From Cupriavidus pinatubonensis (GTDB lineage: Bacteria > Pseudomonadota > Gammaproteobacteria > Burkholderiales > Burkholderiaceae): a stretch of DNA of 64,000 nucleotides. Each line of letters opens with the position of its first letter. The first letter of the stretch is position 1. The DNA is taken from assembly GCF_019602855.1 (NCBI RefSeq), contig NZ_CP080767.1:2170001-2234000 (forward strand). Direction: 5' to 3'. The translations under genes and the position numbers were made by a program. Of the stretch, positions 4,003 through 15,295 are shown piece by piece. A model generated the notes under the pieces. The model did not search any database. It worked only from the letters and a program-made list of their open reading frames with translations, and was not told the DNA's origin.

Positions 4003-5589
4003 TCAGACTTCTTCGTACAGCGGCAGCGTCAGGAATTCGGCAAAGTCTTCCGACGTCGACATCTGCTCGAAGATTTCCGCAGCGCGGTCGTACGTCCTCG
4101 TCTCGCCGCCGACTTCAGCCTTCACCTTGGCCAGTTCTTCCGGAATCAGCTTGCGCACGAGTTCGGCCGTGACCTTGGTGCCGTCTTCCAGCTTGCCCTT
4201 CGGCGAGCGGATCCATTGCCACACCTGCGAGCGCGAGATTTCGGCGGTGGCCGCATCTTCCATCAGGTTGTGGATCGGCACGCAGCCGTTGCCGGCCAGC
4301 CAGGCGCCCAGGTAGTGGATGCCCACGTTGATGTTCATGCGCAGGCCGCCTTCGGTGATCGGCGTTTCCGGCTGGAAGTCCAGCAGGTCCGAACCCTTCA
4401 CGTTCACGTCCGGACGCTGCTTCTCGAACTGGTTCGGCTTGTCGCCGAGCACAGCCACGAATTCCTTCATGGCGGGCTCGACCAGCCCCGGGTGAGCCAC
4501 CCAGCCGCCGTCGTAGCCGTCGGTCGCGTCGCGCTTCTTGTCGTTGATGATGCCCTGCATGGCGATGGCGTTCTTCTCCGGATCGTTCTTGATCGGGATC
4601 AGTGCGCTCATGCCGCCCATGGCGGGCGCGCCGCGATAGTGGCAGGTCTTCAGCAGCAGCAGTGCGTACGCGCGCATGAACGGCGCGGTCATGGTGACCT
4701 TGGCGCGGTCGGCCAGGCAGAAGTTCTTGTCGTTCTTGAACTTCTTGATGCACGAGAAGATGTAGTCCCAGCGGCCGGCGTTCAGCCCAGCGCTGTGCTC
4801 GCGCAGTTCGTACAGGATTTCATCCATTTCGAACGCGGCGAGGATGGTTTCGATCAGCACCGTGGCCTTGATCGTGCCTTGCGGCAGGCCGATCTCGTTC
4901 TGGGCCATCACGAAGATATCGTTCCACAGGCGTGCTTCCAGATGGCTTTCCATCTTCGGCAGGTAGAAGAACGGGCCGTCGCCGCGGGCGATTTGCTCCT
5001 TGGCGTTGTGGACCAGGAACAGCGCGAAGTCGAAGATGCCGCCCGAGACGCGCTTGCCGTCGATCGTGACGTGCTTTTCGTCGAGGTGCCAGCCACGGGG
5101 ACGCACCTGCAGCGTAGCGATCTTGTCGTTGAGCTTGTATTGCTTGCCCTTCGATTCCAGCGTCAGCGTGCGGCGCACGGCAGCCTTCAGGTTCACCTGA
5201 CCCTGCATCTGGTTGTGCCAGTTCGGGGTGTTGGAGTCCTCGAAGTCGGTCATGTAGCTGTCAGCGCCCGAGTTGAAGGCGTTGATGACCATCTTGGCCT
5301 CGACCGGACCGGTGATTTCCACGCGGCGGCATTCCAGGGCCTTGGGGATCGGGGCAACCTTCCAGTCGCCTTCGCGGATGTGCTTGGTTTCCGGCAGGAA
5401 ATCGGGCACTTCGCCAGCGTCCAGGCGCTTGGCGCGTTCCACGCGCGCGGCCAGCAGTTCCTGACGGCGCGGCTCGAAGGCGCGGTGCAGTTTGTCTACC
5501 AGGGCCAGGGCTTCCGGCGTGAGGATATCTTCGTAGGCCGGCAGGATCTCGCCGGTAATCTTCATGCCCGCGGGCAGCGTGATAGCCAT
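4003..5589 (-). CDS. aceB: Malate synthase A
   Basis: 528 residues, the normal length of malate synthase A, which condenses glyoxylate with acetyl-CoA to malate in the glyoxylate bypass (cytoplasm). Visible family signatures: the TDFEDSNTPNW active-site stretch, RPRGWHLDEKHV, GPFFYLPKMESHLEARLWND, and the C-terminal NVGIHYLGAWLAGNGCVPIHNL with MEDAATAEISRSQVWQW, which carries the catalytic Asp. The gene follows the haloacid dehalogenase gene by 54 bases on the same strand and ends at a clear terminator. The partner enzyme gene aceA is about 8 kb away at 13994-15295. The start is preceded by AGGAGA. Confidence 0.97.
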   Translation of the reverse strand: MAITLPAGMKITGEILPAYEDILTPEALALVDKLHRAFEPRRQELLAARVERAKRLDAGEVPDFLPETKHIREGDWKVAPIPKALECRRVEITGPVEAKMVINAFNSGADSYMTDFEDSNTPNWHNQMQGQVNLKAAVRRTLTLESKGKQYKLNDKIATLQVRPRGWHLDEKHVTIDGKRVSGGIFDFALFLVHNAKEQIARGDGPFFYLPKMESHLEARLWNDIFVMAQNEIGLPQGTIKATVLIETILAAFEMDEILYELREHSAGLNAGRWDYIFSCIKKFKNDKNFCLADRAKVTMTAPFMRAYALLLLKTCHYRGAPAMGGMSALIPIKNDPEKNAIAMQGIINDKKRDATDGYDGGWVAHPGLVEPAMKEFVAVLGDKPNQFEKQRPDVNVKGSDLLDFQPETPITEGGLRMNINVGIHYLGAWLAGNGCVPIHNLMEDAATAEISRSQVWQWIRSPKGKLEDGTKVTAELVRKLIPEELAKVKAEVGGETRTYDRAAEIFEQMSTSEDFAEFLTLPLYEEV

Positions 5590-6595: not shown

Positions 6596-7546
6596 GTGGA
6601 CCATTTCAAACAACTGGAGACTTTTGTATCCGTGGCCTCGCGCGGCAGCTTGTCCGCCGCGGCGGGAGCCGAAGGGGTGGCACCCGCCATCATCGGACGG
6701 CGCATCGATGCCCTGGAGGAGCGGCTGGGCGTCAAGCTGTTGATCCGCACCACGCGCAAGATCAGCCTGACCTTCGAGGGTTCAGCCTTCCTGGAAGACT
6801 GCCAGCGCATCCTGAATGACCTGCACAACGCGGAAGCCAGCGTGTCGGCCGGTGGCGTAAAGGCCAGCGGCCACCTGCGTGTCACGGCCCCGGCCGGTTA
6901 CGGACGCAAGCATGTGGCGCCGCTCGTGCCGCTGTTTATCGAATCGCACCCTGATGTGACGATTACGCTGGATCTATCCGATCGCGTCGTCGATCTCGTC
7001 AATGAAGGCTTTGACTGCGCCATTCGGCTGGGCGATCTGCCGGATTCCAGCCTGGTTTCCATCCGGCTCGCCGAAACACGTCGTGTGGTGGTGGCATCAC
7101 CCGACTATCTGGCAAGGGCAGGCACTCCGGTTCTGCCGGAAGAACTGCAGGGCCATAACTGCCTGGCGTTCGGCGCGAGCGCCAATGTCCAGCGCGGCTG
7201 GGTATTCCAGCAGGAAGGCCGTACGGTCACGGTCAAAGTGGGCGGCGATATGGAATGCACGGACGGCGCCGTGCTCCACGAGTGGTGCCTGCAGGGGCAT
7301 GGATTGGCCTGGCGTTCGTGGTGGGAGGTGGGCAGCGAAATCGCCAGCGGCCGGCTGGTGACAGTGCTCGATGAGTTCCAGGCGCCGCCGATCGGCATCC
7401 ACGCCGTATTTCCGCAGCGCAAGCACCTGCCGCTGCGCGTGCGCTTGTTTATCGACCATCTGAAGAACACTTACGGCAATCCGGCCTACTGGCGCCGGAC
7501 TGAGCAGACTCCGGCTCGGACAGCCATGACGGCAGTGGCGGGATAA
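6596..7546 (+). CDS. LysR-family transcriptional regulator
   Basis: 316 residues. The N-terminal winged helix-turn-helix (DHFKQLETFVSVASRGSLSA through IGRRIDALEERLGVKLLIR) is a standard LysR DNA-binding domain, followed by a substrate-binding domain (HLRVTAPAGYGRKHVAPLV onward). The start is GTG at 6596, since the LysR domain begins immediately after it. The gene is divergent from the haloacid dehalogenase-aceB pair across a 250-base gap, the usual arrangement of a LysR regulator and its target. Regulation of the HAD/aceB genes is inferred. The inducer is unknown. Confidence 0.9.
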   Translation: MDHFKQLETFVSVASRGSLSAAAGAEGVAPAIIGRRIDALEERLGVKLLIRTTRKISLTFEGSAFLEDCQRILNDLHNAEASVSAGGVKASGHLRVTAPAGYGRKHVAPLVPLFIESHPDVTITLDLSDRVVDLVNEGFDCAIRLGDLPDSSLVSIRLAETRRVVVASPDYLARAGTPVLPEELQGHNCLAFGASANVQRGWVFQQEGRTVTVKVGGDMECTDGAVLHEWCLQGHGLAWRSWWEVGSEIASGRLVTVLDEFQAPPIGIHAVFPQRKHLPLRVRLFIDHLKNTYGNPAYWRRTEQTPARTAMTAVAG

Positions 7547-7592
7547 GGCAGCTACGCGGGAGCAGGATGTGCGCTATCGCACTCTGTTGCAA

Positions 7593-7633
7593 TTGATTTA
7601 GCGCAATGCCCTACTCGGCACACTGTCTACAAT
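7593..7633 (+). promoter_or_regulatory. FNR/ANR-like site and promoter of the universal stress gene
   Basis: TTGAT-TTAG-CGCAA at 7593-7606 matches the FNR/ANR pattern TTGAT-N4-ATCAA perfectly in the first half and at three of five bases in the second. A -10-like TACAAT lies at 7628-7633. With a start near 7640, the centre of the site (7599.5) falls at about -41, the class II activator position, and no good -35 box is present, as expected for an activator-dependent promoter. The leader to the gene is about 90 bases. Confidence 0.5.
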
Positions 7634-7731
7634 GGTTTTCAGACAGGCGCTTTCCGGTCGCAAGCAAAAGTCTTGTGAAGGTCGCAACCGGGCCTGCCCT
7701 CCCCTCATCCCCCGCATGAAAGGAGTCCCGC

Positions 7732-8166
7732 ATGTTCCAACACATCCTTCTCCCCACCGACGGTTCCGACCTCTCCAAGAAGGCAATCAACGGCGGACTG
7801 GAGCTAGCCAAGGCCATCGGCGCACGCGTCACTGCCTATGTCTGCCTGGAAGAGTATCCATACACACCGTTCAGCGAGATCGTGGTCGAGGCACCGCAGG
7901 CCTTCAAGGACCGCATCGAGAACCAGGCCAAGCTATACCTGAAGGAAGTGGAAAACCTCGCCATGGCGGCGGGCGTGACGTTTGACACCGACATGTCGAC
8001 GTTTGCAGTGCCTTATCTCGGCATCATCGACGCGGCCGAGCGGCATGGCTGCGATGTGATCTTCATGGCGTCGCACGGCCGGCGCGGCTTGTCCGGGCTG
8101 TTGCTGGGCTCGGAAACCCAGAAGGTGCTCACGCACACCGACATTCCGGTGATCGTTTATCGCTAA
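7732..8166 (+). CDS. Universal stress protein (UspA family)
   Basis: A 144-residue single Usp domain. It starts MFQHILLPTDGSDLSKKAI and ends with the ATP-binding signature HGRRGLSGLLLGSETQKVL followed by HTDIPVIVYR, so it belongs to the ATP-binding class of Usp proteins. These cytoplasmic proteins support survival under starvation, redox or anaerobic stress. RBS AAAGGAG lies at a good distance. The gene is alone, between a LysR gene and the convergent chemosensory operon. An FNR-like site upstream suggests oxygen control (inference). Confidence 0.93.
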   Translation: MFQHILLPTDGSDLSKKAINGGLELAKAIGARVTAYVCLEEYPYTPFSEIVVEAPQAFKDRIENQAKLYLKEVENLAMAAGVTFDTDMSTFAVPYLGIIDAAERHGCDVIFMASHGRRGLSGLLLGSETQKVLTHTDIPVIVYR

Positions 8167-8223
8167 TTTCGATCGCTGGCAGGACCGAGGCCAACGGCCC
8201 GGTCCTGCCCCTGCCGTTCTGGC

Positions 8224-8589
8224 TCAGGCCGCGAGCTTGCGGAACGTCTCAAGCACGGCGTCGCCCTTGAACGGCTTGACGATCCAGCCGCGCACGCCGG
8301 CTGCCTTGCCGCGTTCCTTCATGGCCGGGCTGCTTTCCGTGGTCAGCATGATGATGTTGACACCGGCGTTCTTCAGTTCGCCGCGGATCTTTTCCACCAT
8401 GGTCAGGCCATCCATCTCGGGCATATTGATATCACTGACCACCAGGCGAATGTCCTGACGGCCACGCAGCTTCGCGAGGCCGTCCTTGCCGTCCACCGCA
8501 GTCTCGACATCCAGGCCATTGCGCCGCAGGAATCCGGCGACCTCGTCCCGCACGGTGCTCGAGTCGTCTACTACGAGAATCTTCCCCAT
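8224..8589 (-). CDS. CheY-like single-domain response regulator
   Basis: 121 residues, a bare receiver domain. The acid pair D8/D9, the phospho-acceptor D53 (VVSDINMPEMDG), T83/T84 (MLTTES) and K105 (GWIVKPF) are all present, so phosphorylation should be possible. No DNA-binding or enzymatic output domain is attached, so it must act by protein contact, as CheY does. It is the last gene of a four-gene minus-strand operon with a CheA-like kinase, an MCP-like protein and a CheX-like protein. The spacing to the CheX-like gene is 47 bases. Its target (flagellar motor or another machine) cannot be told from the window. Confidence 0.9.
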   Translation of the reverse strand: MGKILVVDDSSTVRDEVAGFLRRNGLDVETAVDGKDGLAKLRGRQDIRLVVSDINMPEMDGLTMVEKIRGELKNAGVNIIMLTTESSPAMKERGKAAGVRGWIVKPFKGDAVLETFRKLAA

Positions 8590-8636
8590 TTATTGCCTCG
8601 CTTTCCTTTGCATCAACTTTCGTATCAATTTTCGTG

Positions 8637-9170
8637 TCAAAACAATTCCAGCTCGCCGCCACTCTCGGTCTCCGCCGCGACTTCGGCCTGGAAGTCGAGC
8701 GGACCATTGGCACACACCGCCAGCGTCACACCCACCTGCACCCCATCGTTGATGACCACCGCATAGGTGGCCAGCATTTGGGGGCCGAGCGCATCGACGT
8801 ACGACAGGCAATGCGCGCCAAGCACGTAGGGCGTGGACATACCCAGATCCGGGAAATACGCGGACAGCACCTGGCTGATGGCGCCGCAGCAAAGATTGCC
8901 GATTTCCAGGAAGCCTTCCAGCGGCGTCACGCTGGCCGTATCACGCACGAAGTACTGGCGCGTCTGTGCACGCGCCGGCAGGTGCAGCAGGAGCAGCAAC
9001 CGAAACGCGAGGCCCGAAATCGTGAACGTGACGATATCCGCGTCGGTCTCCATGGTTTCCGTGCTGACGCGCGCCACGTTGCAGTGGTCGGCGGCATCCA
9101 TCACCAGCCGGCTGCGCACGGCGTGCTGGAGGATCCGGTCGAAGCTGTCGCTTGCGTTCGCGCTGATCAC
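8637..9170 (-). CDS. CheX-like chemotaxis phosphatase domain protein
   Basis: 177 residues from the GTG at 9170, which overlaps the TGA of the upstream MCP-like gene by four bases (GTGA), so translation is coupled. The C-terminal half contains the CheC/CheX/FliY phosphatase signature ExxNxxxG as EIGNLCCG (E89, N92, G96) at the start of a helix, followed by a beta-rich region (YAVVINDGVQVGVTLAVC) typical of CheX. CheX proteins dephosphorylate CheY-P. Only one ExxN motif is visible, as in CheX rather than CheC. The likely partner is the adjacent CheY-like protein. The N-terminal 60 residues are poorly recognisable. Confidence 0.75.
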   Translation of the reverse strand: MISANASDSFDRILQHAVRSRLVMDAADHCNVARVSTETMETDADIVTFTISGLAFRLLLLLHLPARAQTRQYFVRDTASVTPLEGFLEIGNLCCGAISQVLSAYFPDLGMSTPYVLGAHCLSYVDALGPQMLATYAVVINDGVQVGVTLAVCANGPLDFQAEVAAETESGGELELF

Positions 9171-9892
9171 GACCCGGCCCTGCCAGACAGGGAAACGAGT
9201 TGGCCGGCCAGCGACTCGACCTGGCTCAGCGATGCGGTAATCATCTTGCCGCCGGCCTGGATATCCTGGAACGTCGCTGCGGTGGACAGGTCGTTCTTGT
9301 GCAGGCATTCGCCGAAGCCGCGCGCCAGCGCTTCCGACCGGGCCGCGAGCGTCCTGACTTCGCCAGCGACGATCGCAAAGCCGCGGCCGAACTGCCCGGC
9401 ATGCGCGGCTTCGATCGAAGCGTTCAGCGAGACAATGACCACGTGTCGCACGATAGAAGCGAGCTCCGCATTCTTGGTGTGCATCTCGCGGTTCTGCGCC
9501 ATCAGCGCGATCATCTGCTCGTGCCAGCGCTCGAAGGTCGTGGCCAGGCCGCGCAGGCGGTTCGTTTCGGCAGCGATACGGGCGGCATGCGCAGCCCCGT
9601 TGCGCGCGGCCTCTTGCGCGCCGCGCAGCGCCTCGGCTGCCTGGCGTGCCTGCCGGGACTGCTCCGTCAAAGCCTCCCGGCTCTGCGCAAGTTCCTGCTC
9701 GAGCTGCGCCACGCGCTGTTCGGCAGCCTCGCGCCGCTCGCGCTCGCCATCGTCGTGCCACACCGGCGGCTCAACCACCGGCTGCGCTGCCGTGGCGCGC
9801 ACGGTGCGCCTTTCACCGAACCATGTCTTGCATCGCGCGGCCCACGTGCCGGCACGGCCGGCGGATCCCTCTGTCAAAGTCTGTCTGCTCAT
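9167..9892 (-). CDS. Small soluble methyl-accepting-chemotaxis-like signalling protein
   Basis: 241 residues with no membrane segment. After a basic N-terminus comes a long coiled coil rich in Ala, Glu, Gln and Arg (about 50-130), then a segment close to the MCP hairpin tip: IVSLNASIEAAHAGQFGRGF followed by AIVAGEVRTLAARSEALA. That stretch in true receptors binds CheA and CheW. The rest of the signalling domain is short: only one helix-turn-helix remains, with no HAMP and no ligand domain. It lies 26 bases after the receptor-kinase gene and overlaps the CheX-like gene. I infer a scaffold or input role for the kinase, which has no other obvious CheW-type partner here. Confidence 0.75.
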   Translation of the reverse strand: MSRQTLTEGSAGRAGTWAARCKTWFGERRTVRATAAQPVVEPPVWHDDGERERREAAEQRVAQLEQELAQSREALTEQSRQARQAAEALRGAQEAARNGAAHAARIAAETNRLRGLATTFERWHEQMIALMAQNREMHTKNAELASIVRHVVIVSLNASIEAAHAGQFGRGFAIVAGEVRTLAARSEALARGFGECLHKNDLSTAATFQDIQAGGKMITASLSQVESLAGQLVSLSGRAGS

Positions 9893-9918
9893 TGCACTGA
9901 TACTGATACGTAGATCGA

Positions 9919-12303
9919 TTACGCTTCCATCGGCTGCGGTACGGCTGCGCGGTCCGCTTGCGGGTGCCGGCCCTCAAGTCCGGCGGCGTCCACGATGTAG
10001 CGTTGCGGCAGCCGCACGATGGTTTCGAAGAGCCTGAACGTCGCGCCTTCGCTGTCGTCGGTAAAGTGCAGGCTCACGTTGCCGCCCTCGCGCTGCAGGA
10101 AGGCCAGCACCGCCTCCATGCCGACACCGCGACCCGAAACAGCCGTCACGTTCTGCGCCGTGGAAAACCCGGCGCGGAAGATGAACTGCGCAAGCTCCGC
10201 ATCGCTGCACGCCTGATTGGCTTGCAACCAACCGCGCGCGATGGCAATGCTGCGGATGCGCCCAAGGCTGAGCCCGCGACCGTCATCGGCTAGCGTTACC
10301 CGCAGGCCCTGTTCGTCCGTGATCACATCGACCGTGATCCGGCCTGCAGCCGGCTTGCCCTCCAGCCGGCGCACGTCGGGCTGCTCGATGCCGTGGTCGA
10401 GCGCATTGCGAAACAGGTGGGTAAAGACATCCGTGAGCACGGCGCCGGCCTTCGCCACTACGCGTTGGCCGCCACCATTGACCTGTACAGCCGGCGCGGC
10501 CTTGCCGAGTTCCGTGGCCAGCGACGGCAGGGAGTCGATCACGCCCGACAGCGCATGATCGACGCTGACTGTCCCAAGGCAGCTCAGGTTGCGGTGCACG
10601 GCATCACGCATGGCAGCCAGTTCGCGCAGGCTGGTCGGATCAGATTGCTCCACGAGCGCCAGCGTCGCGCGGATGGCTTCTTCATCGGCAGACGGCATGC
10701 CCACCGCCGAACCACCGCCCTGCATGCTGCGCCCGAGCCGCGATTCGCTGATCATTGCATAACGGCCCAGCGCGTCATGCACGCGCTCAAGTTCGTCGAG
10801 CAGGCGGTCCTTGTCCCAGTTGCCCTGGGCGGCGGCGCTGCGCAGCGAGTCGTAAGACTGTTCGATCTCGTGCGCGACTTCGGCAATATGGCGGAACTGG
10901 TGCGTGCGCGCATTGCCCTTCACGGTATGCATATTGCGGAACAACGCGTTGACCGCGTCGATGTCCGCCTGCACGTTCTGGCGCAGGATGCGCTCGTTCT
11001 CGCGCGCAAACCCGACCGCGCTTTCCATGAAGCGGCTGAACGATGCCTCGTTCACCGCGAGGATTTCGCCGATGATCTCGAGATCCTGCTTCTGTTCGCT
11101 CGCTTCGGCGGCAAGCTTGCGCAGTTGCGTGACATCGCGCAGGCACAGCATCAGCCGCACGATGTTGTCGTGCTCGTCGGTGATCGGCGACCAGCTCAGG
11201 TCCAGCACTTTCACGCTCCCGTCCGGCATGCGGCGCGTGACTTCCTTCACGAGCAGATGCTCGTTGAAGTCGAAGTTCATCAGGTCCTGCCCTAGACAGG
11301 CGTCAATCGCAGCATCCACCTGCGACGCCAGCTCGGCGCTGATATCGCTGTGCGCAACGATCAGCTCCATGACATGGCGGCCCTCGATCTCGTGCGTTTC
11401 CAGAATCTGTTCGAGAAACTTCGAGTACTCGGGATGAACAACGGCGCCCGGCACCACGGTCAGGATGCCCTGCTGCATGTTCTGCAGGATAGCCTGCATG
11501 TCGGTAGTCTTCTGGCGCAGCAGGCCCGCGTTCTCCTGGATCCTCTCGATCATGCTGTTGAACGCGATGATCGAACGGCCGATTTCGTCCGCGCTGCCGA
11601 CCGGTACGCGCCGCGAAAAATCCTGGCTGTCCGCAATCTCGCTCATCATTGCCTGCATGCGCGTCAGCGGGCGAGCGATCTGGCGATACAGCACCATGCC
11701 GACACCAACCAGTAGCAGCACTGCGATGCCGCTCACCACGCCGATCGCCGTGGTAGTCGTACTCATCAGCCCGTTCAGTGCGGTGATGGCCTCGTCTTTC
11801 TCGCGGTTTTTTTCCACGCGAAGCGTCTGGACGATCTTTTCCATTTCGTCGCGATAGCGCGCCACGTTGGCAAACAGAAAGGCCTGCGCGAGTTCATCGC
11901 GGCCAGCGGCTTTCATTTCCGCGGTCTCGCGGATGGCCTCGGCGTAATTGCCGAAGCTTTCCCTGGCCTGCTCCACCAGTCCGCGCTGAGCCTGCGTATG
12001 GGCGTGCTCCGCCTGGGATGCGAGCGCCATGCTTAACGCCGCCTGATGGTCCTTCAGTTCGGCCTGGCTTTGCGCCACCAGCGCGGCGTCGGGCGCATAC
12101 ACGAGCGCCATCGTCGCAAGCTGCACATCCTTGACGAGTGCGACGACATCGGCAGACGCCAGCGCGCTCGGCACGACGCCTTCCGTCACTTCCTTGACCT
12201 GTGCGGCGCTGCCCCGCGTCTGATAGACGGCGTAGCCGCCAATACCGGCCAGCGACAGGAACGCCAGCATGATCAACAGCGTAATGCGATGACGAATACT
12301 CAT
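9919..12303 (-). CDS. Transmembrane receptor fused to a CheA-like histidine kinase (HAMP-PAS-Hpt-HATPase)
   Basis: 794 residues from ATG 12303 (MSIRHRITLLIM). Order: membrane helix 6-28; a periplasmic four-helix-bundle-type sensor to about 183; membrane helix 184-207; HAMP about 207-260; a PAS-like region about 265-395; an Hpt domain with HTVKGNAR (phospho-His about 459); and a CheA-type HATPase with HLFRNALDHGIE (Asn about 636), DDGRGL (676) and FSTAQNVTAVSGRGVGM (about 732). The GFSTA-x2-VT-x-VSGRGVGM stretch is diagnostic of CheA rather than ordinary sensor kinases. No CheW-like P5 domain follows the ATPase, and no receiver is attached. It heads the operon and should phosphorylate the CheY-like protein. 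The frame stays open to 12360, but the membrane anchor begins at 12303. Confidence 0.85.
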   Translation of the reverse strand: MSIRHRITLLIMLAFLSLAGIGGYAVYQTRGSAAQVKEVTEGVVPSALASADVVALVKDVQLATMALVYAPDAALVAQSQAELKDHQAALSMALASQAEHAHTQAQRGLVEQARESFGNYAEAIRETAEMKAAGRDELAQAFLFANVARYRDEMEKIVQTLRVEKNREKDEAITALNGLMSTTTTAIGVVSGIAVLLLVGVGMVLYRQIARPLTRMQAMMSEIADSQDFSRRVPVGSADEIGRSIIAFNSMIERIQENAGLLRQKTTDMQAILQNMQQGILTVVPGAVVHPEYSKFLEQILETHEIEGRHVMELIVAHSDISAELASQVDAAIDACLGQDLMNFDFNEHLLVKEVTRRMPDGSVKVLDLSWSPITDEHDNIVRLMLCLRDVTQLRKLAAEASEQKQDLEIIGEILAVNEASFSRFMESAVGFARENERILRQNVQADIDAVNALFRNMHTVKGNARTHQFRHIAEVAHEIEQSYDSLRSAAAQGNWDKDRLLDELERVHDALGRYAMISESRLGRSMQGGGSAVGMPSADEEAIRATLALVEQSDPTSLRELAAMRDAVHRNLSCLGTVSVDHALSGVIDSLPSLATELGKAAPAVQVNGGGQRVVAKAGAVLTDVFTHLFRNALDHGIEQPDVRRLEGKPAAGRITVDVITDEQGLRVTLADDGRGLSLGRIRSIAIARGWLQANQACSDAELAQFIFRAGFSTAQNVTAVSGRGVGMEAVLAFLQREGGNVSLHFTDDSEGATFRLFETIVRLPQRYIVDAAGLEGRHPQADRAAVPQPMEA

Positions 12304-12398
12304 AGCTACCTGCAATGCCCCAATGCTGTGTTTGCGAACTGATCCTGCGCCATTGCGCAAGTCAGAAGAGAGGTGGAAAACAGGGCCAAATTATTGTG

Positions 12399-12436
12399 AC
12401 AAAGTGTTACCGCGACATGACTACGCGTCACTTTGT
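12399..12436. promoter_or_regulatory. Operator-like inverted repeat between the kinase operon and the DUF3562 gene
   Basis: ACAAAGTG (12399-12406) and CACTTTGT (12429-12436) are exact reverse complements whose centres are 30 bases apart, about three helical turns. They lie in the divergent gap between the chemosensory operon (start 12303) and the DUF3562 gene (start 12577). The sequence around them is AT-richer than its surroundings. A dimeric or looping regulator acting on both directions is the inference. The alternative is a weak hairpin with a 22-base loop. Confidence 0.4.
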
Positions 12437-12576
12437 TTAACGAATGCAAGGCGGGAGCGGAAACTTGCGCGTCAGGCGGGGGACGTTCGGGAAGAAGCAC
12501 CCGCAGCAAAGTCAAAAAGGAACTTGCCCGGCGGAGTCAGATTGCTAATCTGGATGGCAGTCGCGGAGGAATGGCC

Positions 12577-12777
12577 ATGATAAGGACAGACAGCAAGCAG
12601 CAACTGATCCGCAAGATCGCCGAGGAATGCCACGCCCCGGAAGCGCTGGTCGCGGACATGTACGAACACACGATGGAGGATCTGAGCGCACAGGCTCGCA
12701 TCCGCGACTATCTGCCGTTGATGGTGGCGCGGCGTGTCCGGCAGGAAATCAAGGACAGCCAGCACATCTTGCATTGA
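12577..12777 (+). CDS. DUF3562 family small protein
   Basis: 66 residues from ATG 12577 (MIRTDSKQQLIRKIAEECHA), with GGAGGA six bases upstream. A second in-frame ATG at 12571 is too close to that ribosome site. The sequence through VADMYEHTMEDLSAQARIRD to LPLMVARRVRQEI matches DUF3562, a small helical family of Burkholderiales with unknown function. It is divergent from the chemosensory operon and convergent with the M48 protease gene. A tandem GAGGCGCT overlaps the stop codon region. Confidence 0.8.
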   Translation: MIRTDSKQQLIRKIAEECHAPEALVADMYEHTMEDLSAQARIRDYLPLMVARRVRQEIKDSQHILH

Positions 12778-12913
12778 GGCGCTGAGGCGCTGTGCCGCCA
12801 GGCCAAGCACACCACGCGGTTGCGGCCCAGGCGTCTTGCCTCGTAGAGCTCGAAGCGGGCGAGCGGACGGGCGTGGCGTTGTTGCCGTACCCGCCGTTGC
12901 AGGGCCGCCGTAC

Positions 12914-13666
12914 TTACGCACCCTTGTTGATGCGCTCCTGAATATGCTGGGCGCGCGCATCCGATCCCGGATGCGACGAGAACATGCTGGACTTGCCGCC
13001 ATCGAGCTTGGCCAGCTTCTGGAACGCCGTTACCAGCCCACTTGTGCTGGCCTTGTTCTTCGTCAGCAGGTCGAACGAGTAGTCGTCCGCCGCCGATTCC
13101 TGGGACTGAGAGAACTGCGCGTTGATCAGCTTCTCGCCGAGTTCGCCGAGTTGCGACGACGACAATGCGGCCACCGCACTGCTGCTGGCCGACGCTGCCA
13201 CGCCACGCGCCGCGGTTGCCGTGTAGGCGACCTGCATCGCCTTCTTCGTGTGGCCCAGCGCCACGTGGCCCATCTCGTGGCCGAGCACGCCGCGCACCTC
13301 ATCGTCGGTCATCATGTCCATCAAGCCGCTGTACACGCGCACGCAACCGTTGGCCATCGCCCACGCGTTGACGTCCTTGGTCATGTAGACCCTGGCGTTC
13401 ACGTTGGGCATATCCGAATTCTTCAGACCCGTCATGACTTTGGCCAGGCGTCTGGAATACGTGCTGCCGGAGGCGGCGATCTTGTTGGTCTTGTCGGATT
13501 CAGCGCAGGCCTGGTCGGACAGGCTCTTGACGTCGGCGTCGCTGAGCGTAGCCGCCTTGGCCAGGCTGCTGCCGGCGGCCATCATGCCGTCGAGGTTGGT
13601 GCCGGCGCAGCCGGCCAGGGTCGCGGCGGCTGCTGCTGCGAGGGCAATGAGAAGAGTTGCTTTCAT
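12914..13666 (-). CDS. M48-family zinc metalloprotease, lipoprotein
   Basis: 250 residues. The N-terminus is a lipoprotein signal peptide with lipobox LAGC (Cys20). The zinc motif is H130-E-M-G-H134 within RGVLGHEMGHVALGHTKKAM, with the downstream glutamate ligand in SQESAADDYSF. The C-terminus has the FSSHPGSDARAQHI motif of M48/LoiP-type periplasmic proteases. It should act in outer-membrane protein quality control as an outer-membrane-anchored enzyme. It is a single gene with a strong inverted repeat 52 bases upstream of its start. Confidence 0.92.
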   Translation of the reverse strand: MKATLLIALAAAAAATLAGCAGTNLDGMMAAGSSLAKAATLSDADVKSLSDQACAESDKTNKIAASGSTYSRRLAKVMTGLKNSDMPNVNARVYMTKDVNAWAMANGCVRVYSGLMDMMTDDEVRGVLGHEMGHVALGHTKKAMQVAYTATAARGVAASASSSAVAALSSSQLGELGEKLINAQFSQSQESAADDYSFDLLTKNKASTSGLVTAFQKLAKLDGGKSSMFSSHPGSDARAQHIQERINKGA

Positions 13667-13717
13667 GGTGTCGCGGGATCAACGCACGGCAAGCGTGCAA
13701 GAGGATGTGTGTCGGAT

Positions 13718-13744
13718 GTGCCTTGAATGTGTCATTCAGGGCAC
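13718..13744. repeat. 12-bp inverted repeat upstream of the M48 protease gene
   Basis: GTGCCTTGAATG (13718-13729) and CATTCAGGGCAC (13733-13744) are reverse complements with one mismatch (a G-U pair in RNA) around a three-base centre. It is 52 bases before the protease start on the minus strand, so it is either an operator overlapping the promoter or a hairpin in the leader RNA. Confidence 0.5.
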
Positions 13745-13852
13745 CCGGACTTTATTCCACTTTTATGCCACGGCGGGACGGTTGATGCGCGATAGCCACC
13801 AATTATGACAATTAATTACATTTGAGTTGCCCTGCCGAGCAGACAAAAAAAA

Positions 13853-13921
13853 ACCGCGCCGCCTCCTGAGAGAGAAACGGCGCGGTGCCTGAAAAAGAGG
13901 AGCGTGATGGTCGCACGCTCC
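13853..13921 (-). terminator. Terminator region after aceA, two hairpins
   Basis: Read on the minus strand, a first hairpin GGAGCGTG/CACGCTCC (13899-13906 with 13914-13921) is followed by ACCGCGCCG/CGGCGCGGT (13853-13861 with 13878-13886). A run of nine T (A at 13844-13852) comes directly after the second. The second is a textbook rho-independent terminator for aceA; the first may protect the transcript end. The rest of the 327-base gap 13667-13993 holds the upstream region of the M48 gene. Confidence 0.85.
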
Positions 13922-13993
13922 CCCTGGTCTGCTGAACCTAGAGACTGCTCGGTTCCCCCCGATCTATGTTTCAGCAAACGGTGGCCAGGAGAG

Positions 13994-15295
<1,302 letters not shown>

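Follow-up and report, generated by a model that had tools for sequence, protein, structure and literature searches.

A conserved operon in Cupriavidus pinatubonensis and its relatives: a one-chain receptor-kinase, an MCP signalling tip, tailed CheX-like proteins and a CheY-like receiver

CheA kinase cores and the signalling tips of methyl-accepting chemotaxis proteins (MCPs) are usually thought to depend on arrays held together by CheW, and a compact operon of Cupriavidus pinatubonensis raises the question of how such parts may act in another setting. The operon lies on the minus strand at positions 8224–12303 of the window, the 64,000-nucleotide stretch analysed here (contig NZ_CP080767.1, positions 2,170,001–2,234,000). 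It consists of four genes, separated by 26, −4 and 47 bases, the second junction being a GTGA overlap; the layout proposed in the initial annotation agrees with the open reading frame coordinates. In order of transcription, the genes encode a membrane receptor-kinase, a bare MCP signalling hairpin, a CheX-like protein (CheX-A) and a single-domain CheY-like receiver. The reading we favour, with a probability of roughly 0.55, is that these proteins form a stand-alone phosphorelay of chemosensory descent. In it, phosphate would pass from the Hpt domain of the kinase to the receiver, CheX proteins addressed by a carboxy-terminal tail would end the signal, the MCP tip would take the place of CheW and of the P5 domain of CheA, and a PhoB-type regulator would switch the operon on.

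The gene set is conserved far beyond this strain. A relative of CheX-A, the protein used to define a positive genome, is present in 93 of the 200 genomes of the family sample, distributed over 10 of 25 genera. Besides the window, the 101 loci compared comprise 92 stretches from the family sample and eight loci that are named or borne on plasmids; one named locus, L032, repeats L086, the two kinases being identical. Leaving aside L130, which is cut by the end of its contig, there are 100 complete loci, and every one of them has the four genes in this order on a single strand. Among the 300 genomes of the order sample 13 are positive, ten of these outside the family, while the phylum sample (5 positive genomes of 398) adds one genome from another order. 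All 11 distant loci contain the four genes on one strand, with a changed order in six (L146–L150 and L152). An order unique to the strain or to Cupriavidus is ruled out by these 100 complete and 11 distant loci; its conservation outside the genus, on which the initial annotation had made its case depend, is thus found, with partial rearrangement at a distance. The module is real, widespread and coherent, and it plausibly works like a chemosensory relay.

The receptor-kinase and the MCP-tip protein

The first gene (9919–12303, minus strand) encodes a protein of 794 amino acids, in which Pfam recognises a 4HB_MCP_1 domain (E = 3.9e-9), forming a two-helix sensor, a HAMP domain (9e-11), an Hpt domain (PF01627, 5.3e-10) and an ATPase (HATPase_c, PF02518, 3.9e-9), with a weak PAS match that stays below the Pfam cut-off (0.02). 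The best matches of residues 581–759 in the PDB are CheA structures (phmmer, E = 3.5e-30). The proposal that receptor and kinase are one chain is thus borne out. In the alignment of 40 kinases, the presumed phospho-accepting residue of the Hpt domain, His459 in the motif HTVKGNAR (codon at 10927–10929, minus strand), is invariant, as are the residues of the ATPase boxes that we take to be N, G1 and G2. The Hpt string HT[IV]KG occurs in 100 of the 100 loci and the ATPase string SGRGVGM in 99, the sole locus without it being L039, where the kinase gene is broken. This L039 copy is split by a frame change into pieces corresponding to residues 1–604 and 596–779, which may reflect a fault in the assembly or a genuine lesion. 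The kinases of L143, L149, L150 and L153 match only from about residue 250, with a different sensor half and the PAS-like region, Hpt domain and ATPase retained; in L146 the match begins at residue 279 because the contig begins there. Across the phylum, the kinase core finds matches at E ≤ 1e-20 in 167 of 200 genomes. Among the matches listed, those in G493 and in the window's own genome alone extend over the PAS-like part; the remainder span the ATPase and, at best, some of the Hpt domain.

At its carboxy-terminus the kinase ends shortly after the ATPase. Sixty-five residues follow SGRGVGM in the window's protein, and 57–106 in the 99 loci holding this string. The Pfam search gave no CheW match in the window's kinase at E ≤ 10 and, because there is no such match and too few residues follow the ATPase, the P5 domain is absent. 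The model of the kinase is of low confidence, with a mean predicted local distance difference test (pLDDT) score of 60.6 and values below 50 in the PAS region, and its tail beyond the ATPase is disordered. Together, the profile search, the short tail and its disorder rule out a hidden CheW domain there, in agreement with the initial annotation, which saw none. The dimerisation domain P3 of CheA (H-kinase_dim) likewise gave no Pfam match; the low-confidence model has two short helices at residues 539–573. A kinase built in this way would use its 4HB domain to sense a periplasmic cue, and might use the PAS-like domain for a cytoplasmic one, upon which its CheA-type ATPase would phosphorylate its own His459.

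The second gene (9167–9892, minus strand) encodes 241 amino acids, comprising a coiled coil and the hairpin tip of an MCP. The MCPsignal profile is matched with an E-value of 1.8e-14 over positions 45–125 of 172; a full-length signalling domain was not found. A profile made from the tip proteins matches MCP chains in the PDB (E = 8e-13). Invariant columns are plentiful in the alignment from around residue 120, through the hairpin, whose core contains the invariant residues E161, A162, A163 and G169–F172 among others, to the string FQDIQAGGKM in the stem after the hairpin, which is invariant across the tip family. When the window is compared with C. numazuensis, the ratio of non-synonymous to synonymous substitution rates (dN/dS) is 0.27–0.38 for the tip, 0.16–0.22 for CheX, 0.09–0.11 for the kinase and 0.03–0.04 for CheY. 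The invariant columns and a dN/dS below 1 rule out that the tip protein is a decayed pseudogene, and in relatives too it is not a truncated remnant.

A hydrophobic amino-terminal helix, taken as a 19-residue stretch with a mean hydropathy of at least 1.6 within the first 60 residues, is present in the tip protein of 90 of the 100 loci, and in most relatives the tip is likely to be membrane-anchored. The copies of the window and of C. numazuensis are without this helix (hydropathy −0.33 and −0.16). The protein had been described as soluble, which fits these two copies but, by hydropathy, not those of the 90 loci with a membrane-type helix. The 26 bases between the kinase and tip genes of the window leave little room for an upstream start, and the low hydropathy of the tips of L102 and L106 may reflect a misplaced start.

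Two roles for the tip can be weighed. It may be a private allosteric or scaffold element replacing the coupling through CheW and P5, as the favoured phosphorelay has it, or it may plug the kinase into an ordinary CheW/CheA array, making the operon an accessory input to canonical chemotaxis. The second seems to us unlikely. The conserved MCP hairpin core speaks for it, as do the matches of the tip to MCP chains in structures where CheA is present too (PDB 3ur1, 4jpb, 3ja6 and 8c5v). Beyond this, CheW is encoded in each of the 93 positives from the family sample and of the 11 distant ones, with nine matches in the window's own genome. The kinase, however, is without the P5 domain by which it would join an array, the invariant FQDIQAGGKM lies beyond the MCP alignments shown (although one further match, 31cj, spans it), and no cheW gene was found among the six genes flanking the operon in the window. 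These six genes code for a malate synthase, a LysR regulator, a Usp protein, a DUF3562 protein, an M48 peptidase and an isocitrate lyase; the statement of the initial annotation that no cheW, cheR, cheB or flagellar gene is nearby stands for these six, which are the part of the 64 kb that was checked. The same annotation had called the pathway self-contained. That no CheW-like domain was found in the kinase agrees with this, while the presence of both CheW and FliM in each of the 93 family and 11 distant positive genomes means that the pathway may exchange input with ordinary chemotaxis arrays.

The CheX proteins, their common tail and the receiver

CheX-A (8637–9170, minus strand) has 177 amino acids, starts with GTG and carries the active-site motif EIGNLCCG. 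Pfam finds nothing in the window's protein at E ≤ 10; among the 41 aligned CheX-A members (the window's included), 25 match the Pfam CheX family at E ≤ 1, the best at 0.0016. The catalytic glutamate and asparagine are invariant in all 41, and the ExxNxxxG motif is present in 100 of the 101 CheX-A proteins, the exception being that of L130 at its contig end. The model of CheX-A is of modest confidence (pLDDT 62, predicted template modelling score 0.60), with residues 157–177 below a pLDDT of 50. When it is compared with known structures, those of CheX rank first (Foldseek, 1xko, E = 1.2e-5), and it can be superposed onto 3hzh_B over 142 residues at 3.3 Å (VIA-align, Z = 13.4). A role of CheX in ending the signal, as first proposed, fits the invariant catalytic pair and the modelled CheX fold, with the activity towards phosphorylated CheY a putative one.

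A fifth gene is located between those of CheX-A and CheY in 61 of the 100 loci (7 of them named). Its product, CheX-B, has 213–353 residues; each of the 21 aligned sequences has a Pfam CheX match at E ≤ 1 (best 1.9e-13), their catalytic residues are invariant, and ExxNxxxG is present in 61 of 61. In the longer CheX-B proteins the amino-terminal stretch looks like a receiver without a phospho-acceptor. CheX-B is absent from the operons of the window and of C. numazuensis, and a profile search gave none elsewhere in the window's own genome, where an empty result is weak. Since nine of the 11 distant loci have CheX-B, its loss in the lineage of the window is the simpler story. In the phosphorelay, CheX-A would dephosphorylate CheY, helped in 61 of 100 loci by CheX-B, either as a receiver-like stretch joined to CheX or as CheX alone.

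Apart from one feature, CheX-A and CheX-B are hardly alike (hhalign probability 15). This feature is a short carboxy-terminal tail, GELELF in the window's CheX-A (8640–8657, minus strand). In the 101 loci CheX-A ends in GELELF (96), GELEMF (3) or GALELF (2), and the 61 CheX-B proteins end in GELELF (32), GALELF (14), GELDLF (8), GALEMF (6) or GALEIF (1). In the distant loci, all 11 CheX-A tails fit G-x-[LM]-E-[LMF]-F, and G[ED]LE[LF]F terminates eight of the nine CheX-B proteins, the reading frame of the other one (L146) being broken. G[EDA]L[DE]LF followed by a stop codon was turned into a DNA pattern, which admits phenylalanine at the leucine places and does not admit methionine. In 16 whole genomes it occurs at 23 places, against three for the reversed control pattern. 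Profile searches assign all 23 places to CheX-A (13) or CheX-B (10) and, since every match is one of these two, the tail is a private mark of the module as far as that pattern tells in those genomes. One of the ten CheX-B places belongs to genome G258, which contains an extra, stand-alone CheX-B outside the operon (L196, G258:C14) that ends in GELEFF.

In the favoured reading, a tail of this kind would dock both phosphatases onto a common partner within the system, for which CheY or the MCP-tip protein would be the best candidates. It might instead be a degradation signal or a strand closing a dimer. Its place at the extreme carboxy-terminus, and the pLDDT below 50 of the modelled residues 157–177, would suit such a function, which we nevertheless regard as rather improbable: CheX-A proteins keep the tail down to about 28% identity, it is carried by two very different proteins, and the absence of any other match to the pattern in the 16 genomes favours a specific partner.

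The receiver (8224–8589, minus strand, 121 amino acids) is a single Response_reg domain (Pfam, E = 7.3e-24). Its Asp53, to which the phosphate of His459 would pass, is invariant in 16 of 16 aligned sequences, and the mean column identity is 88%. A bare receiver accompanied by up to two putative phosphatases would also suit rapid turnover, as in a phosphate sink or buffer that is filled by other kinases and emptied by the CheX proteins. This appears very unlikely, given that the Hpt kinase accompanies the receiver at every complete locus and that the conservation of the 16 receiver sequences exceeds what a mere sink would need.

The promoter region and the possible output

Upstream of the kinase gene, at 12390–12421 on the minus strand, a GTCA/GTAA direct repeat with a period of 11 bases is followed by the −10-like sequence AATAAT. 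A pattern composed to fit this site matches nowhere else in the 64 kb (0.09 matches expected). The arrangement recurs in relatives. Within 200 bases of the kinase start, a period-11 GTCA pair with at least 7 of 8 letters is present in 97 of 99 loci, compared with 6.0 in letter shuffles; exact pairs occur in 57 loci (0.4 expected) and other spacings are rare. ATAAT is found at −200 to −30 of the kinase in 90 of the 99 loci, with 10.9 expected, and 35 representative upstream sites give the consensus gTCATcg..tcGTCAcA..C..CCcCgATAAT. When a matrix made from 32 loci is run over each whole stretch, the promoter site comes out on top at 89 of the 99 loci, and at 58 of the 67 outside the training set, which include close relatives of training loci. 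No convincing enrichment of sigma-28 or sigma-54 promoters was found upstream, and the region 7000–14000 of the window contains no RNA family at its gathering score. The open reading frame of the DUF3562 protein (12433–12777) runs divergently from the operon and starts 12 bases past the promoter repeat.

Judged from the letters, this layout is that of the boxes of the OmpR/PhoB family. One published source gives the E. coli Pho box as CTGTCATNNNNCTGTCAT (PMC11828411). The GTCA pairs of the 97 loci agree with two copies of CTGTCAT at 7–12 of 14 letters, that upstream of E. coli pstS at 14 of 14. Comparable pairs (9–12) are present upstream of six of eight Burkholderiaceae pstS genes, four of these eight having estimated starts. 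Among the distant loci, L144 shows on visual inspection two GTCAC copies with a period of 11. The operon is likely to be switched on by a regulator of the OmpR/PhoB family, and we consider control by PhoB itself, under phosphate starvation, to be probable.

The output of the phosphorelay is approached here through the genomes that carry it. In the order sample, all 13 positives encode FliM, for a base rate of 199 in 300 (p = 0.004, in a calculation that ignores kinship), as do all ten outside the family (p = 0.016). The 11 distant positives, ten of which belong to these 13, likewise all encode it, and in the family sample each of the 93 positives has both FliM and CheW. Of 17 positive genomes examined for PilT, 13 give a match that reaches the cut-off; because four do not, twitching is not required, and type IV pili are unsupported as a required output. 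A flagellar output is possible, and the flagellar motor would be the likeliest single one.

The same phosphorelay could have an output other than motility, with phosphorylated CheY binding another target, as in chemosensory pathways of alternative function. Several observations give this substance: the receiver scores 71 bits against the NCBIfam flagellar CheY family, whose cut-off is 189, none of the six flanking genes is flagellar, no clear sigma-28 site precedes the operon, and a promoter resembling a Pho box hints at nutrient stress. Yet no positive genome tested is without FliM, and no output gene is common next to the operon, where the neighbour family shared most widely is found at 42 of the 100 loci; none of the neighbours is general enough across these loci to serve as a clue. 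Such an output is a possibility to which we give clearly less weight than to the phosphorelay as such. More doubtful still is the most specific form of the proposal, in which the operon would represent a branch of chemosensory signalling free of CheW, methylation and lattice, in which a separate, membrane-bound tip would act directly on a one-chain receptor-CheA, the tail would address two dissimilar CheX proteins to one partner, and phosphate starvation would switch the circuit on so as to adjust swimming.

A number of observations weigh against the stand-alone phosphorelay and its control as set out above. FliM is also encoded in 59, and CheW in 57, of the 107 negative genomes of the family sample. 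None of the 20 genomes listed as lacking FliM exceeds 2.8 Mb, so genome size confounds the link with FliM. As CheW is always present elsewhere in positive genomes, the module may be connected to ordinary arrays. Sigma-28 sites occur upstream at 3 of 100 loci, with 0.8 expected, which is no clear enrichment. Two of the eight Burkholderiaceae pstS upstream regions are without a comparable pair, and in the promoter consensus the letter before GTCA is not T, leaving the T of the TGTCA half-site unconserved. When ten distant loci were scanned with the promoter matrix (the gene start being estimated for four), the top site was upstream of the kinase in none. At L149 and L150 the kinase gene is located about 1.8 kb from the other genes of the operon. 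Finally, both structure models, that of CheX-A and that of the kinase, are of modest confidence.

Relation to known systems, history and surroundings

Ordinary two-component systems include membrane kinases and Hpt relays in which a one-chain sensor kinase feeds a receiver, as in this operon. They differ from it in that its CheA-type ATPase is combined with an Hpt domain, presumed to be autophosphorylated, and with an MCP tip and CheX proteins. With CheA the kinase shares an Hpt domain with its active histidine and the CheA-type ATPase; unlike CheA, it has its own membrane sensor, HAMP domain and PAS-like region, and is without P5/CheW. According to a survey of CheA (PMC10542144), a CheW domain is present in 100% of its CheA proteins, and the HATPase and CheW domains together served for recognition. 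Because that survey requires a CheW domain, the kinase described here is outside it. The P5/CheW part by which CheA and the receptor–CheW–CheA complex are defined is absent from the module, which by that definition belongs to neither.

The tip protein resembles MCPs in its conserved hairpin tip. It differs in that no sensor domain was found in it, the signalling domain is partly covered, at most one hydrophobic helix is present at the amino-terminus (none in the window's copy) and the operon is without adaptation enzymes. With the CheX phosphatases (PF13690, with structures from T. maritima, B. burgdorferi, Shewanella and Vibrio), CheX-A has the fold and the ExxNxxxG motif in common; the missing Pfam match of the window's CheX-A, the GxLExF tails and the receiver-like stretch of the longer CheX-B are differences.

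Neither a description of this gene set nor an experiment on it was found in the open-access literature, searched by titles and abstract openings, a scope that most subscription journals fall outside. New here are the fifth gene, for a second CheX protein, the shared tail, the amino-terminal helix of the tip protein in relatives and the Pho-box-like promoter. If the phosphorelay works as proposed, a CheA core and an MCP tip could be rebuilt as a compact membrane kinase system, and the effect of an MCP tip on a kinase would become testable in a system of few parts. A private peptide tag may then serve to recruit phosphatases of the CheX type, and surveys that depend on the CheW domain would overlook a class of CheA-like kinases.

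In a tree of 40 kinases, the five copies from Cupriavidus form one group (100/97), whose neighbour is genus g24 (100/99). The branch leading to the window and C. numazuensis is long (0.71). The module is present in four of 22 sampled genomes of Cupriavidus, and this patchy presence suggests repeated loss in the genus. With the copies forming a single group beside g24, a recent horizontal gain is not favoured and loss is likelier. The long branch, the missing CheX-B and the missing tip helix of the lineage of the window and C. numazuensis may reflect altered function or relaxed constraint.

The stretches read around three other Cupriavidus loci (L102, L106 and L128), each about 13 kb long, yielded neither a malate synthase nor an isocitrate lyase gene. 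In the window, the operon is located between these two genes (4003–5589 and 13994–15295), and in C. numazuensis it has the same position.

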